Assembly (NCBI GenBank): GCA_031255525.1
Contig: JAIRSJ010000029.1
Coordinates: forward strand, 1 to 58,192
DNA: 58,192 bases
Source: Campylobacteraceae bacterium
Lineage (GTDB): Bacteria; Campylobacterota; Campylobacteria; Campylobacterales; Campylobacteraceae
Direction: 5' to 3'
Shown piece after piece: positions 44,832 to 53,223 of this stretch. The notes under the pieces were generated by a model. It was not told where the DNA came from, ran no database searches, and was given only the letters and a program-made list of their open reading frames with translations. The stretch's first letter is position 1, and each line of letters starts with the position of its first letter. The position numbers and the translations under genes are program-made.

Positions 44832-44966
44832 TTTTACTCCTTTTATTTTAAAATATTTAGTAATAGTAGTAAGTTATGTTGAAAATGTGAAAAGTCCGGA
44901 TTTTGTTCTATTAGAAGGGCTTTTCTTGATGTGAATAAGTTTACTTGTTTTTTCACGCTTTTTCAC
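44832..44966. promoter_or_regulatory. oriC: Putative replication origin (dnaN-dnaA intergenic): DnaA boxes and DnaA-trio-like run
   Basis: TAGTAATAGTAGTAA 44858-44872; TGTGAAAA 44886-44893; TGTGAATAA 44930-44938; TTTTCACG 44950-44957; TTTTCACT 44959-44966. Confidence 0.8.
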
Positions 44967-46282
44967 TCCTCTTTTGTCAAAATTTTATTTTTTAACTCAT
45001 CTACTTTTAATCTAAAGTCTTCATTATTTTGAATTAATTCGTTTATTTTTTTCATGTTGTGTGATACCGCAGTGTGGTCTTTCATTCCGAAAAATGATGC
45101 TAAAGACGGCATAGAATTTGGTGTCAATTCTCTTGCTAAATATATGCCTATTCTCCTCGCTTCTACTATATTGATAGAACGCTTCTTTGATTTTATTTCA
45201 CTTGGTTTTATATTGAGCTCTTTTGACACGACTTTAATGATATTTTCCAAAGTTATATTTTTATATCTCTCTTTTAGTTGATCTTTTAGTACGTTTTTTG
45301 CAAAATCAAGTGTTATATTTTGTCTTGTTAACATAGCAAAAGCATTTAAATTTATAATCGCACTTTCTATCTCTCTTATATTATCTCCCATATTCGATGC
45401 TATATAATCAACTATATCTTTGTTAAGATTTATACCGTCAAGTTCGCATTTTTTATTTATTATGGCTATTTTTGTTTCAAGTTCAGGATATCCTATATCT
45501 GCTATCAAACCCCATTCGAATCTGCTTTTTAATCTCTCTTCAATACCATCTATCACTTTAGGTGGCTTATCTGAAGTTAATACAATCTGTTTTTTAATAG
45601 TATGAAGTTCATTAAATGTATGAAAAAATTCCTCTTGAGTTTGTATCTTGTTTGATAAAAACTGTATGTCATCAATCAGTAAAAAATCACATTTTCTGTA
45701 TTTTTCTCTGAATCTATCCATAATTTTATTCATAGAGTGGTGTATATAATCGTTTAAAAACTGCTCGCTTGTAGCATATATAACAAGTTTATCGTGATTT
45801 TGTGCGTAATTTCCTATCGCGTGTATAAGATGAGTTTTTCCTATTCCGGTTGGTCCGTAGATAAATATAGGATTGTAAACCATACCCGGTTTCGAAGCTG
45901 CAGCCTTTGCTACGGTATATGCGTAATTATTTGAACTTCCGACTACAAAATTATTAAAGTTATACGAAGGATTTAAAATGCTGTTTTTAAACTCTTTCTC
46001 TTTTTGTATAATTTTATTAGATGTTTTTTTGTTGTTTTCTATTGTATTTTTAAGTATAAACTCCACAGAATATTTTATACCTGTCTCTTGTTCAAACAGA
46101 TGAGATATTTTTTCCGTGTATTTTGTTTTTACCCAATTTAATATCAAAAGATTCGGTACATCAAATACTACCGTGCCGGACTTTGACTCTTTTTCATTGT
46201 AGCTTAGTTGTTTAATATATCTGTCATATTCGCCAAAAGGTATCTCATTTTTTAGAAGTTCAAATACATTATCAGATAACAA
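44963..46282 (-). CDS. dnaA: Chromosomal replication initiator DnaA
   Basis: NPIFIYGPTGIGKTHLIHAIGN, FLLIDDIQFL, DHTAVSHNMKKI. Confidence 0.98.
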   Translation of the reverse strand: MLSDNVFELLKNEIPFGEYDRYIKQLSYNEKESKSGTVVFDVPNLLILNWVKTKYTEKISHLFEQETGIKYSVEFILKNTIENNKKTSNKIIQKEKEFKNSILNPSYNFNNFVVGSSNNYAYTVAKAAASKPGMVYNPIFIYGPTGIGKTHLIHAIGNYAQNHDKLVIYATSEQFLNDYIHHSMNKIMDRFREKYRKCDFLLIDDIQFLSNKIQTQEEFFHTFNELHTIKKQIVLTSDKPPKVIDGIEERLKSRFEWGLIADIGYPELETKIAIINKKCELDGINLNKDIVDYIASNMGDNIREIESAIINLNAFAMLTRQNITLDFAKNVLKDQLKERYKNITLENIIKVVSKELNIKPSEIKSKKRSINIVEARRIGIYLARELTPNSMPSLASFFGMKDHTAVSHNMKKINELIQNNEDFRLKVDELKNKILTKEE

Positions 46283-46390
46283 AGCGCACCCTTAAAAACA
46301 TAAATAACTTATATTTTATCCAATTTTCGTTGAATTGTATGTTAAATAAAAGAGTGTTACAATTGCGAAAATAAGATATAAAGGACTTCT

Positions 46391-46861
46391 TTGATCATTT
46401 TAGGGATAGATCCCGGAAGCAAAAATTGCGGATACGCGTTGATAGAAAAAAATTTTAACAGACTCAAACTTGTAGAAGCAGGACTAATAAAAATAAAATC
46501 AAGTGAATTACAATATCAAATAACAGAACTTGTAGAGGGAATGGATATTATATTTAAAAACAATAAGATAGATGAAGTTGCCATCGAGGATATCTTTTAT
46601 GCGTACAATCCGAAAACCGTTTTAAAATTGGCGCAATTTAGAGGGGCTTTGAGTCTTAAGATTTTGCAAGTTTTTGGAAATTTTAACGAATATACTCCCT
46701 TGCAGGTTAAAAAATCCGTCACAGGAAAAGCGAAAGCGAAAAAAGAGCAAGTGGCTTTTATGGTTAAAAGGATCCTTGGCATCAATCAAGAGATAAAACC
46801 GCTTGATATCACGGACGCTATCGCTGTTGCCCTGACCCATGCACAAAGGATAAAGGCGTAG
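46391..46861 (+). CDS. ruvC: Holliday junction resolvase RuvC
   Basis: [43 protein letters not shown] start. Confidence 0.96.
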
Positions 46862-46913
46862 AAATAATACATACAAACTTCATTTTTCTTCCGCCATTTC
46901 CGTTTTTCTTTTT

Positions 46914-46942
46914 GTCATTCCCGCGCAGACTGAAATCCAAAC
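46914..46942. repeat. GTCATTCCCGCG-type intergenic repeat, copy 1
   Basis: gtcattcccgcgcagactgaaatcc; compare copy at 48859. Confidence 0.5.
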
Positions 46943-47474
46943 AAGCGAAGTGTTTTCGTTTTATCAAAATATTTCATCGAAAAACTATAAGAAAATATTA
47001 GGATACAAAAGAAATACGAAAAGCTTCACTTAATAAAAATTTTTGTAAAATAGTATAAATCTTTTTTAAAGAATATAAAATGATTAAGATTAATTTAAGA
47101 ATTTTTGCGCAGAGAGAGAGAGAGAGTATCTTAAAAGAAGCTTAAATTATTCATTTCAAAAATATAACCGATTTTCTTTAATATCACAAAATTTCCCCCA
47201 AATTTCAAAATGCCCTCCGTCAAATAAAACATCTATCTTTAAGCGTGCGCGAGCTTGTTTAAAATATACAAACCTCTCAATTTTTGTCAAAAAACAACCA
47301 TTCATCTTTCCATTATCAATAATCTCAAATATTTCTCATTGTATGTCAAACCGTTTCTCTTTGTTATTTCCGTGCTCAAATAAAATGTATTTCTGCAAAA
47401 ATGACGGAAAGAAGACAATTTATCACTGCTATTTTTCACTCAACAATCACAAAATTTCCCATAAGGAGTTTCAC

Positions 47475-48740
47475 ATGAAAGATTTATTAAAGGCTGGGCT
47501 ATTGGCTCTTACACTTTTATTTTTAACAGGCTGCGGTGGAGGAGGCGGAAGTTCCGGCGGTGGTACCCAAGGTGGCGGTACTCCGGGCGGTGATACTCCC
47601 GAATACACCATCTCATTTTACGATGACAGTCTTGACCTTATAGATTCTACAGTTGAACAAAGAGGCAATGTCAATATCACAAGTTTAGCTGATGATCTTG
47701 GTATCATTTCAGCGATATACCCTGCAAACAGCAGTACGGATATCACAGGCGACAGCGCTTATGAAGAGTACAATCTGATCAAAGATGTCAATTTCTACAC
47801 TGTCCAAAATGTTCAGGAGGTAACCGACCAAGCGGGACTTAACTCCGTTAGAGATAATCTAATAGGTAAATATATACTGCTTGAGGATATTCCTCTAAAT
47901 GATGGAGATGGGGTTGATGCAACTGAAGGCTGGCTTCCGATAGGCGATAATTTAAATATGTTTACGGGCATCTTTAATGGAAACGGTTATAAAATAACAA
48001 ATCTTTGGATTGATAGATCATCAACTAATTATGTTGGTCTTTTTGGTTTTATTAGAAATGCTCAGATAAAAAATCTTGGAGTTGAGATAGCAGAGGGCAA
48101 GAGTGTAACGGGACTAAACTTTGTCGGCGGTATAGCGGGAAATGTTTTTAACAGCGCTACAATCCAAAATAGTTATGCAACGGGAAGCGTTAGTGGAAAT
48201 AGTCGGGTCGGCGGTATCGCCGGAAGCGTTGAAACCGGCTCCGCGATTACAAACAGCTATACAATGGGAAGCATTAGCGGAAACAGCTTTGTCGGTGGTA
48301 TAGCGGGAAATGTTTATAACAGCGCTACAATCCAAAATAGTTATGCAGCGGGAAGCATTAGCGGCACATACCAATATGTCGGCGGTATAGCGGGATATCT
48401 TTTCGACGGCTCTACAATCCAAAACAGCGCCGCTATTAATCCGTCGGTTACGGGGACAGATAATGTAAATCGCGTGGTCGGTTATATTCGCAATGACTAT
48501 GGCGTAAATATCGTTTCAAATAATTTCGCGCTTGATACGATGAGTGTAACAGGGACAATTAGTGGCAACGCGGGAACGAGTAAAACCGACGCGGAGCTAA
48601 AAACGCAGACAACCTATGAAGATGTAATAAACGGCGATGGATTAGGCGGTCTTGACTGGAGTTTTGGAGAGGACAAAGATAACCCTTGGAAGATAGACGA
48701 GGGCAGTGGTTATCCATATCTCTATTGGCAGGATTTGTAG
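47475..48740 (+). CDS. GLUG-repeat lipoprotein with Gly-rich tether
   Basis: MKDLLKAGLLALTLLFLTGCGGGGGSSGGG; four VGGIAG...IxNSYAxGSxSG repeats; start at 47475. Confidence 0.85.
   Translation: MKDLLKAGLLALTLLFLTGCGGGGGSSGGGTQGGGTPGGDTPEYTISFYDDSLDLIDSTVEQRGNVNITSLADDLGIISAIYPANSSTDITGDSAYEEYNLIKDVNFYTVQNVQEVTDQAGLNSVRDNLIGKYILLEDIPLNDGDGVDATEGWLPIGDNLNMFTGIFNGNGYKITNLWIDRSSTNYVGLFGFIRNAQIKNLGVEIAEGKSVTGLNFVGGIAGNVFNSATIQNSYATGSVSGNSRVGGIAGSVETGSAITNSYTMGSISGNSFVGGIAGNVYNSATIQNSYAAGSISGTYQYVGGIAGYLFDGSTIQNSAAINPSVTGTDNVNRVVGYIRNDYGVNIVSNNFALDTMSVTGTISGNAGTSKTDAELKTQTTYEDVINGDGLGGLDWSFGEDKDNPWKIDEGSGYPYLYWQDL
48123..48430 (+). repeat. ~84-bp tandem repeats encoding GLUG units (4 copies)
   Basis: gtcggcggtat-type starts at 48123, 48207, 48291, 48378 (spacing 84, 84, 87). 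Confidence 0.85.
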
Positions 48741-48780
48741 AGAGTTGAAATTAATCAGACTTTGAATATTTGAGAGTATC

Positions 48781-48806
48781 AAGGCGGGATAAACCCCGCC
48801 TTTTTT
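48781..48806 (+). terminator. Rho-independent terminator of the GLUG gene
   Basis: AAGGCGGG-ataaa-CCCCGCCTTTTTTG. Confidence 0.85.
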
Positions 48807-48858
48807 GTTTTTACTCTGTTTTGTCATTCACATTTTCCTTTGTCCCCCATACTCTTTT

Positions 48859-48886
48859 GTCATTCTTGCGTAGGTGGGAATAACGG
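48859..48886. repeat. GTCATTCCCGCG-type intergenic repeat, copy 2
   Basis: gtcattcttgcgtaggtgggaataacgg. Confidence 0.5.
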
Positions 48887-48893
48887 AGATAGC

Positions 48894-49050
48894 GTCATTG
48901 CAAGCATAGCGAAGCAATCTATCAACACAAAGTGTTTAATATTTTAGGTTTTTAAATTAGAAGTTTTTATTTTTTAACAATCAAGACAGCCAACATTTTT
49001 TGTACTTCCTCCGGATTGCTTTGCCCAGCTTCGCACTTTTCGCAATGACA
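48894..49050. repeat. Inverted pair of GTCATTGCRAGC...GAAGCAATC elements (REP/MITE-like)
   Basis: Left gtcattgcaagcatagcgaagcaatc 48894-48919; right ggattgctttgcccagcttcgcacttttcgcaatgac 49012-49049 in opposite orientation. Confidence 0.65.
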
Positions 49051-49104
49051 GAAAGGGTATTTTATTATAAGCCTAAAGTCTATCGAGCGCAAAAGTTGTT
49101 TAAA

Positions 49105-50270
49105 AAAGAGTCGAAAAAATTGTCATTTTATCTTTACCTCGCCAGATAACAATCAGCATGGAAGTCCCAAATGCCCAGCCTGAAAGTGCACTCGCATGCG
49201 TACCCAAGAACAATGTCCCGATAATGTAACCAAGCGCGCTTATCGCATCTCAGCCAAGCATTGTCCCGCCACCGAGTCCTGTCAAAGCTTCTTTGATAGA
49301 TGGTTTTTGAAATTCAAACCTTTTTTCTGCAAAAGAGGATACAAAAGCACCGCCGATAAGCCCAAACACCGATAAAGCGTTTTGATTTAGCCAAAATCTT
49401 GTGGCAGATCGCCGCACACTGCAAATGTGTCAAGTCCGTTCAGGCGTGAGAGTGTTGGATCAAACATGTTTGATACGGTGCGAACCCATGAAGCGATTGT
49501 AACAGTTACTTCCAAAGGTTTCATCTATATGATGGCAAAGATGCCGATAATTCCTATTAAACACCGCCGCTTCGGCAGTTCTACCGTTTTGTCAAAACTC
49601 TTTTTAACGCTTCTAAAAGGGCGGTGCGGGATTTGTGTACTTTTTTGCTGCCTGCAAGCCACACCATAAGATAACGCCAAGAAGTAAAATCGCACCAAGC
49701 TACCTCCTTCAGATACGAAGGTAGCCAATACTCGCATCCGCTATGTTAGAGTCGGAGCATCCCATGTATTAAAACCGATAAAAAATGCGATAACCGTTCA
49801 GATAAGAACAAAAAGTGAGATAAACGAACCCTTTGAGAGATGATACGGATGCGCACTTGTGCATGATTTCGCAACAACCATTCCAAACCCGAAAACAAAC
49901 CCGCCCGCCAAAAGTACCTCATTCACGTACCCTACATAAATATCAGGTGATATATCTGCGCCAAGCGGATTTGACTGCCAGCCTCCTATAACCAAGGTAT
50001 ATCCTATGATTCCCGCCGCGATAGACAAGTAGCAGTTGCCAGCGCTCCTATCGGGTCGTTATTTTCAAGTCAATCTCTTAAATGACAGTAAAAGCAAAAT
50101 CTACTTTTTTGTATGACAAAGCCAAGCGACAAGCCGCACAAAAGAGGGTATTTTGCTGTTTTTTGGAACAGTTGAGAGGCAACATGCAAAGATGAGCATA
50201 AAAAGAGATAATACAATGGCCGCTTTTTACTGCATACTTTTCCCCGAAAAAGCCCGCCATTTTAAGCGGA
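49105..50270 (-). pseudogene. Decayed YeeE/YedE-family (sulfur-compound) transporter
   Basis: Fragments in shifting frames: GLSLGFVIQKSRFCF..RD*LENNDPIGALATA; GYTLVIGGWQSNPLGADISPDIYVGYVNEVLLAGGFVFGFGMVVAKSCTSAHPYHLSKGSFISLFVLI*TVIAFFIGFNTWD; FGLIGGAFVSSFAEKRFEFQKPSIKEALTGLGGGTMLG*DAISALGYIIGTLFLGTHASALSGWAFG. Confidence 0.8.
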
Positions 50271-50279
50271 CTTGAAAGT

Positions 50280-51195
50280 TTACTTTGCAGACCAAATGGT
50301 GCCTGCGTGGTTGTTTATAGGAATTTTTACCGCATCGCCTACTCTGTTCATGAGCCGTCACAATTTTTTGTATCGCAGTCAAAGATCTTGCTTAGTGCAA
50401 ACCATATGCAGCTTGAACGCTCGCCGACTCGGCAATATGTTATGACGAGTTTTTGAGCTGTCTACACCGACATTGATGTATGGTTTTTAAGCTCTTTGAT
50501 GGGATTGACAGCCTGTCCTCAAGAGACATTAACGGTTGTTGGGGTGCCCGTACGGACAACTCTTGAATACATGCAGGTGCGAAAACTTTGCGCATACTCA
50601 TCAGCAGAGCGGATATCAAGCAGTTTTATCTTCGAGTCACCTTTCGCAACAACAAAGCATCATTCAGTCTTACCCGCAAGATAGAATCCACCTTGTCAAC
50701 CTTAAAGTTTGTAGTTTTTAAACTGTGGCGTTTTGTTGTTTGGTTCGTGCTTTTCGACCACCCCGTTTCACGTGCTCCCCGTTTAAAATCTTGGTGTTAG
50801 GAGCTCCGTATATATCAAACACTCGAGCTTCCCATGCGGCAAAGCAATTGTTAGTATTATCGTGCAAGATGACGATAATATCTTTTCTCATGCCGACTTT
50901 TGAGAGCAATTTTTTTAAAATCCTCCTTGCTTGCGACATCTCGTTTGATTTTATCGTTCAAGCTGGTATGCCGTGAGAAGTTAAGCGCATCCGGGATATG
51001 TCCGAGCTTATATACGCCGGGATTTAGGCTCACCTCTATAGTCCTCATTTTCGGATCATTCAAGTTTTTTACAAGTCACTTTGTGGACACAAGCGAATCA
51101 GTCGCGCTTGCAGCAGTCGTAAAGATAGCCGACAGATCCAATACAAACGTAATGCGCAGCAAAGATCTACGGTTTAAAAATACTACAGTTTTCAT
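50280..51195 (-). pseudogene. Decayed exported rhodanese / thiosulfate sulfurtransferase
   Basis: NDPKMRTIEVSLNPGVYKLGHIPDALNFSRHT..DKIKRDVASKEDFKK / LLSKVGMRKDIIVILHDNTNNCFAAWEARVFDIYGAPNTKILNG / KGDSKIKLLDIRSADEYAQSF / TVNVS*GQAVNP / LVITYCRVGERSS; several frames and stops. Confidence 0.85.
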
Positions 51196-51300
51196 GTTTA
51201 CATTCTAATGTAGTTTTGCAGTAGGACGATTTTGGTGCAAAATTCTTATATATTAAACCTATCAATAAATTATATTTGAAACCTGCGGAGCTATTTTTTA

Positions 51301-51340
51301 TGTGAAAAACTTTTCAACACAACATGTGAAAATGTGAAAA
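51301..51340 (+). promoter_or_regulatory. Cluster of three TGTGAAAA (TTTTCACA) DnaA-box-like octamers upstream of typA
   Basis: 51301-51308, 51325-51332, 51333-51340; plus imperfect inverted TTTTCAACA 51311-51319. Confidence 0.65.
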
Positions 51341-51420
51341 TATATACAAATTTCACGCTTAATACCATTTATAGTATATTTTGGATAGAATACTGCCCTT
51401 ATTAAAATTAGGAGTATTAT

Positions 51421-53223
51421 TTGAGTATGATAAGAAATATTGCTGTTATCGCTCACGTTGACCATGGTAAAACGACTTTAGTAGACGAACTTTTGAAACA
51501 ATCGGGAACTTTTGCCGAGCATCAGAGCGCAGGCGAACGAATGATGGACAGCAATGATATTGAAAAAGAAAGAGGCATAACAATCCTCTCTAAAAACACT
51601 TCCATCGCTTATAAAGGCTATAAGATCAATATCATAGACACTCCGGGACACGCTGATTTTGGCGGCGAAGTGGAACGTGTGTTGAAGATGGTTGACGGCG
51701 TTTTACTCTTGGTAGATGCACAAGAAGGTGTTATGCCTCAAACCAAATTTGTTGTTAAAAAAGCTTTGGGATTCGGATTAAAACCTATAGTTGTTATAAA
51801 TAAAATAGACAAACCGGCAGCCGATTCCGAGCGTGTGATAAACGAGATATTTGATTTGTTTGTAGCACTTGATGCAAATGATGAACAGCTCGATTTTCCT
51901 ATAATTTACGCCGCAGCGCGCGATGGATATGCTAAAAAAAATTTAAATGATAAAAATGAAAATCTTGAACCGTTGTTTGAGGTGATAACTACGCATATTC
52001 CAAGTCCGAGCGGCAAAGATGAAAACCCTGTGCAAGTGCAGATTTTTACACTTGATTATGATAATTACGTAGGTAAGATAGGAATAGCGCGTGTGTTTAA
52101 CGGTTCCATCAAAAAAAATCAAACCGTTATGCTTGCCAAAGCAAGCGGTGAGAGAATAAACGGACGCATTAGTAAACTTATAGGTTTTAAAGGTTTGGAA
52201 AGACTTGATATAAACGAGGCCGGTTCGGGGGATATTATTGCTATAGCTGGTTTCGACGCGCTTGATGTAGGAGATAGTATAGTAGATCCTTCAGATCCCA
52301 TGCCGCTTGATCCTTTGCATATCGAAGAACCTACCTTGAGCGTTGTTTTTGCCGTAAACGACAGTCCGTTAGCCGGACTTGAGGGAAAATATGTAACTTC
52401 AAACAAACTTTCCGAAAGACTTGAAAACGAAGTCAAGACAAATATCGCCATGAAATACGAAAGCATAGGCGAGGGCAAGTTTAAAGTGTCGGGTAGAGGA
52501 GAACTGCAAATAACCATTCTGGCTGAAAATATGAGAAGAGAGGGATTTGAATTTTCTCTTGGAAGACCGGAAGTTATCGTTAAGGAAGAAGACGGCGTGA
52601 AATTAGAGCCGTTTGAACATTTGGTCATAGATGTTCCGGATGATTGTACTGGAGCCGTGATAGAGAAGCTTGGGAAACGAAAAGCCGAAATGACCGCTAT
52701 GAATCCCACAGGAGACGGACAAACAAGGATAGAGTTTGAGATACCTGCCCGCGGACTTATAGGTTTTAGAAGTCAATTTTTGACCGATACAAGAGGCGAG
52801 GGCGTGATGAACCACTCATTTTTGGATTTTCGTCCTTTAAGCGGCAACGTGGAGCATCGCTCAAACGGCTCGCTTGTATCTATGGAAAACGGCGTGGCTC
52901 TTGGATACTCTTTGTGGAATTTGCAAGATAGGGGTGTGCTGTTTATAGATCCGCAGACAAAAGTTTATGTGGGTATGATCATCGGCGAACATTCGCGCCC
53001 CAATGATCTTGACGTAAATCCCATAAAAGGCAAAAATTTAACAAATGTAAGAGCTTCGGGAAGCGACGAGGCTATAAAACTGGTTCCGCCGCGAAGATTA
53101 AATTTGGAGCGCGCGCTTGAGTGGATAGAAGATGATGAAGTAGTAGAAGTAACGCCGAAAAATATCCGCGTCAGAAAAAAATATCTTGACCCGACAACGA
53201 GAAAAAGAATGTCAAAGGCATAA
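51421..53223 (+). CDS. typA: Ribosome-associated GTPase TypA/BipA
   Basis: [54 protein letters not shown]; start may be ATG 51427. Confidence 0.97.

Follow-up and report, generated by a model that had tools for sequence, protein, structure and literature searches.

A cluster of three identical octamers was found upstream of typA, and there is close to an even chance that this extra-oriC group of DnaA boxes replaced oriC1 as the second DnaA platform. The window, i.e., the whole stretch of 58,192 nucleotides that was analyzed, carries TGTGAAAA on the forward strand as box 1 (51301-51308), box 2 (51325-51332), and box 3 (51333-51340), which read TTTTCACA on the other strand. Re-reading of the sequence confirmed the positions and strand given by the first-pass annotation exactly, including the contiguity of the last two copies. 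Box 2 lies 24 bp from the genus-invariant box 1 (23 bp in most relatives), and box 3 follows box 2 head-to-tail at an 8-bp pitch. Box 1 is extended by ACTTT (51309-51313, forward strand), and all three conserved boxes point in the same direction, forming direct repeats. The inverted TTTTCAACA that had also been reported exists on the reverse strand (51311-51319); relatives do not conserve it, which ruled out a CRP-like TGTGA-N6-TCACA dyad. An additional ATTTCACGC at 51350 is likewise not kept in relatives. The triple lies 81-120 bp 5' of the TTG start of typA (51421-53223, forward strand), which encodes the BipA GTPase, and a promoter predicted from the sequence (TTTTGG followed by a -10 element TAGAAT at 51386; 51379-51391, forward strand) is placed between cluster and gene.

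The 13 copies of TGTGAAAA in the window represent a mild enrichment over the 5.3 expected, and it is the clustering rather than the octamer count that stands out. A GTGAAAA/TTTTCAC triple within 40 bp occurred once in the real window and never in 300 windows simulated with first- and third-order Markov models (17.5 Mb in total). Genome-wide counts were obtained by pattern searches of the draft assembly to which the window belongs (1.53 Mb, 117 contigs, 89% complete). The density of clusters across the genome had been proposed as a check by the first-pass annotation, and the outcome was favorable, with TGTGAAAA-N0-30-TGTGAAAA occurring solely at the typA locus. The same-strand pattern GTGAAAA-N0-30-GTGAAAA-N0-30-GTGAAAA gave 10 matches in 14 genus genomes, nine of them at typA, and none in the reversed-pattern control. 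Looser GTGAAAA-N0-30-GTGAAAA pairs in the same draft genome showed no excess (5 vs. 5 in the control); the argument therefore depends on the triple and on how well it is conserved, not on pairs.

All 10 genus genomes having typA and its upstream DNA carry the cluster, arranged as ATGTGAAAAACTTT, 8-9 variable bases, and ATGTGAAAATGTGAAAA. The middle box is slightly changed in two of them, to CGTGAAAA in G009 and TGTGAATA in G010. Invariant columns accounted for 22 of 24 positions in the boxes, 1 of 60 in the flanks, and 0 of 11 in the spacer past ACTTT; the conserved parts are the three octamers and the ACTTT directly after the first one. Assemblies without the cluster are no counter-examples, because they are incomplete and typA is missing there (typA is missing from G002, G003, G008, G011, and G013, of which G003 keeps the first codons together with the cluster). 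Several genus members (loci L062-L064, L066, and L110) have a fourth GTGAAAA some 56-59 bp 5' of box 1, which the window genome lacks. The closest named records are metagenome-assembled Campylobacteraceae (JAIRXG, JAISAU, JAISNU, JAITAB, JAISNG, JAITNC, and JAISGD), and none of the record matches is a cultured member of the genus. We take its habitat to be the termite gut, judging by the accession series and sample codes of the relatives.

In the sister genus (G023), TGTGAAT boxes occur at the same 24/8-bp geometry. A search of 81 family genomes returned this pattern only here, with no match at other loci or in other genera (control 0). The cluster was ruled out as a general typA trait of Campylobacterales, as the other fetched typA upstream regions lack it; L006-L011 and other minus-strand loci, being in the wrong orientation, were left out of this comparison. 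Upstream of typA, Campylobacter spp. (L074-L090) have a conserved AAAGCAAnnnnnGTTCCA, which the termite-gut genus lacks; read in reverse complement, it is similar to a sigma-54 promoter that would serve the divergent flagellar operon. Ancestral boxes just 3' of ruvC were also ruled out, being mostly missing in other genera, and for this reason the cluster seems to have originated in this clade.

The gene ruvC (46391-46861, forward strand) is directly followed by the cluster and typA in G004, G012, and G023. The first two show the order gyrB-dnaN-dnaA/ruvC-cluster-typA with a ruvC-typA spacing of 270-385 bp, the sister genus has a ruvC-typA gap of about 154 bp, and in all three genomes 12 bp to 0.2 kb separate the cluster from ruvC. 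The distance to ruvC is 4-5 kb in the window, G001, G006, and G009, and typA and the cluster are inverted together in G007; despite insertions and this one inversion, the cluster is never more than about 5.2 kb away from ruvC where the assemblies let linkage be seen. The synteny comparison that had been recommended at the outset shows ruvC, cluster, and typA adjacent in three genomes and separated by about 4.4 kb in the window. The early statement that dnaA lies some 5 kb away across accessory or decayed DNA also holds, its start being 5.0 kb from the cluster. This segment (46862-51250, right limit approximate) is absent from G004, G012, and G023. It contains a GLUG-motif lipoprotein-like gene with a glycine-rich start (47343-48740, forward strand), inserted between ruvC and typA, and decayed reverse-strand genes (48740-51250) for rhodanese-like and YeeE/YedE-type sulphur transport proteins with many stops and frame changes. 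The rhodanese-like remnant scores just below the Pfam cut-off, and a REP-like repeat near 48.9 kb is no commoner than chance. A family relative (L106) has a thyX-like gene and a flgE-flgE-flgD-fliK block between ruvC and typA (names read from ORFs), so that loss of such a block probably placed typA beside ruvC.

Footprinted DnaA boxes of epsilonproteobacteria have a TTCAC core (PMC5043019), and those of the C. jejuni oriC mostly follow WWHTTCACW (PMC6052347). All three typA boxes contain the TTCAC core on the reverse strand. The match to this core, put forward in the first-pass annotation, is further borne out by the strong conservation of the boxes and by their resemblance to oriC2, where a tandem pair next to TAG trios, TTGAAAA followed by TGTGAAAA, is arranged head-to-tail at the same 8-bp pitch as boxes 2 and 3. 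The dnaA gene (44963-46282, reverse strand) encodes Bac_DnaA and Bac_DnaA_C domains, and its helix-turn-helix is conserved with the recognition helix MKDHTAVSHN. Since sequence, pitch, and recognition helix match the genus's own oriC2, DnaA very probably binds the typA cluster. DnaA is about 69-71% identical between genus sublineages (window 44963-46282 vs. L145-L153), RuvC mostly 86-93%, and TypA 94-96%; the low DnaA identity suggests fast evolution or DnaA replacement.

In the dnaA-dnaN gap (44832-44962), oriC2 comprises TAG trios at 44858-44872, TTGAAAA at 44879, TGTGAAAA at 44886, TGTGAAT at 44930, and TTTTCAC at 44950 and 44960, the last of which runs into the dnaA 3' end. Trios and oriC2 boxes are located at dnaA-dnaN in every genus member. 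At the canonical oriC1 position, the dnaA-ruvC gap (46283-46390), TTCAC boxes are absent. The count in this gap was zero for 12 genus genomes as well as for the sister genus, whereas 3-7 were counted in 17 of 17 other Campylobacterales.

The reading preferred here is that the typA cluster, three direct-repeat DnaA boxes outside oriC (box, 23/24 bp, box, 8 bp, box), would have arisen in the common ancestor of the termite-gut genus and its sister genus. It sits between ruvC and typA, on the ruvC side of dnaA, in a lineage whose oriC1 has been emptied, and its likeliest function is to stand in for the missing oriC1 as a further platform for DnaA that has no unwinding element. DnaA would assemble at the cluster, loop to the DnaA complex on oriC2, and tune initiation; in the window, accessory DNA would later have pushed the cluster about 4.4 kb from ruvC. 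Loops formed by DnaA between oriC1 and oriC2 were observed in relatives by electron microscopy (PMC5043019), and in C. jejuni DnaA reaches over ruvC to IGR2, with oriC-IGR2 complexes seen by the same method (PMC6052347). If DnaA binds the cluster, an oriC1-like role has slightly better than even prospects. The three boxes in trio-free surroundings correspond to the several boxes without an unwinding element that characterize oriC1, but they are found past ruvC rather than in the gap that separates it from dnaA. The cluster was gained and oriC1 lost in one and the same clade, which is suggestive and not proof, as both probably were one evolutionary event. Several points speak against the replacement of oriC1. 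In G007 the cluster was rearranged along with the typA promoter, which is the behavior expected of a typA operator; the gene itself is origin-near in several other genera, so that proximity to oriC could be passive; the box pattern is unlike that of a typical oriC1, which turns up at tRNA-Pro; and oriC1 may be dispensable in some species, the origin of C. jejuni having been described as monopartite (PMC6052347).

A second cluster is located upstream of tRNA-Pro(GGG) (G000:C11:5615-5660, L189 4117-4161; also L196-L208), is DnaA-box-like, and occurs genus-wide. In the window genome, ATGTGAAAAACTT is restricted to typA and this tRNA-Pro site. Conservation of the module TTCAC-N3-GTGAAAAAGATGTGAAAA extends over 12 genus genomes, with a looser form in three more genera (G021, G022, and G024), and the module equals the oriC1 box grammar of other genera, e.g., TTCACCGCGTGAAAAAAACGTGAAAAACTATTG in G016. 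This grammar matched 52 of 286 fetched loci, and those that were placed are oriC1 or tRNA-Pro; in the window it had no match anywhere. The two clusters have the box core, the orientation, and the ACTT extension in common, while that of typA lacks the oriC1 grammar.

The main rival to oriC1 replacement is DnaA control of typA. DnaA sitting some 60-100 bp 5' of the typA transcription start would couple typA, and tRNA-Pro(GGG) through the second cluster, to replication or growth state. The cluster stays with typA when the upstream neighbor changes or the gene is inverted, both clusters keep their downstream promoters through rearrangement, the tRNA-Pro cluster is similarly placed and its boxes face their gene the same way, and ATGTGAAAAACTT is shared exclusively by these two sites in the window genome, all in keeping with an operator. 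The distance between cluster and promoter is not fixed, however, amounting to about 29, 40, and 75 bp at typA among relatives, and some genomes have 45-55 bp extra at tRNA-Pro. Moreover, an operator leaves the loss of the oriC1 boxes unexplained, and other Campylobacterales express typA without a cluster. As the main role, an operator function is considered unlikely, though it keeps real weight. The roles weighed in this study are not mutually exclusive, and the confidence expressed in each divides the question of the main role. In a combined form, which is tentative and on balance doubtful, oriC1 would have been dismantled and its DnaA-binding duty moved to promoter-linked clusters at typA and tRNA-Pro(GGG), which would serve initiation control as well as translation-gene expression.

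A titration or reset site similar to datA, DARS, or the B. subtilis DnaA-box clusters (DBCs), which would bind DnaA so as to restrain renewed initiation or change the nucleotide state of DnaA while oriC2 remains untouched, is decidedly improbable. Both clusters are conserved, intergenic, and outside oriC, and wherever the assemblies show linkage the typA cluster is close to oriC. Next to the second cluster is a tRNA gene, and the G022 contig with this module also has oriC1, 21 kb away; in E. coli, datA is situated 3' of the glyVXY tRNA operon (PMC5742627). The DARS core of E. coli, however, consists of three boxes with I and II head-to-head (PMC5742627), and the typA cluster has only three boxes that all run in one direction. 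The datA/DARS-like locus considered in the first-pass annotation is in its strict sense unsupported for this reason. In addition, datA, which stimulates DnaA-ATP hydrolysis, needs an IHF site (PMC5742627), and C. jejuni is reported to have neither IHF nor Fis (PMC6052347).

Chances are slim that another transcription factor with a TGTGAAAA-like motif controls translation-related genes from these sites. The motif extended by ACTTT exceeds a DnaA box, and both genus-wide sites precede translation genes. Against this, the box core, the 8 or 11 bp pitch, and a near-identical module occur in oriC1 and oriC2 of the genus or of relatives, and the typA cluster has no conserved dyad. A displaced second origin able to unwind DNA was ruled out. 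It had been raised as a module separated by insertions, and an AT-rich DnaA-box cluster near dnaA speaks for it. The position in the ruvC-typA gap of two genus members and the sister genus and the clade-wide loss of oriC1 boxes partly uphold the displaced module; the origin part fails, as no DnaA-trios occur next to the typA boxes, all genus members have a complete oriC2 at dnaA-dnaN, and the GC skew changes sign at about 45-47 kb, at dnaA-ruvC and away from typA. A chance cluster in AT-rich DNA, in which TGTGAAAA is mildly common, was ruled out by the simulations, the genome-wide uniqueness, and the conservation across the genus.

Neither bipartite origins nor DnaA-box clusters outside the origin are new. 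Deletion of oriC1 was reported to be lethal in H. pylori (PMC5043019), and the clade bears on the purpose of oriC1 and on the possibility of replacing it, its lost oriC1 boxes and conserved nearby cluster constituting a natural experiment. In four genera the tRNA-Pro cluster has the box arrangement of oriC1, and it would make a concrete candidate for a locus that regulates DnaA from outside oriC in Campylobacterota; the open-access literature searched contained no datA-, DARS-, or DBC-like locus for this phylum. A search for datA or DARS in Campylobacter or Helicobacter, which also matched the word "data", returned nothing specific in this literature. If the duty of oriC1 did move to typA and tRNA-Pro, the two clusters would form a regulatory circuit outside oriC, and both are short and amenable to in vitro work with purified DnaA.

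Among known systems, oriC1 of H. pylori, A. butzleri, S. denitrificans, and W. succinogenes (PMC5043019) resembles the typA cluster in its TTCAC core, intergenic location on the ruvC side of dnaA, lack of a DUE, and small number of boxes. It differs in lying between ruvC and dnaA, in its usual TTCAC-N3-GTGAA-11/12-GTGAA grammar as opposed to three direct repeats spaced 24/8 bp, and in the looping to oriC2 seen there, the typA cluster being known from its sequence. C. jejuni IGR2 (PMC6052347) likewise has DnaA boxes 3' of ruvC and near oriC, which were footprinted in that species, but these are two scattered boxes 104 bp apart by flgE and not a tight triple by typA, and no sign of homology between the two was detected. 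The DBCs of B. subtilis (Okumura 2012, as cited in PMC5295017) are intergenic DnaA-box clusters outside the origin with several per genome, and as a conserved intergenic cluster outside oriC the typA cluster falls under the same description. They belong to another phylum and number six, with a known effect on initiation, whereas the typA cluster is described here from DNA sequence. The E. coli loci datA, DARS1, and DARS2 (PMC5742627) are also conserved DnaA-box clusters outside oriC, and both datA and the second cluster have tRNA genes as neighbors, an operon in the case of datA; the typA cluster differs in having no head-to-head core, and dependence on IHF or Fis is not expected. The typA cluster is a new form of the known bipartite or extra-oriC DnaA-box arrangements.
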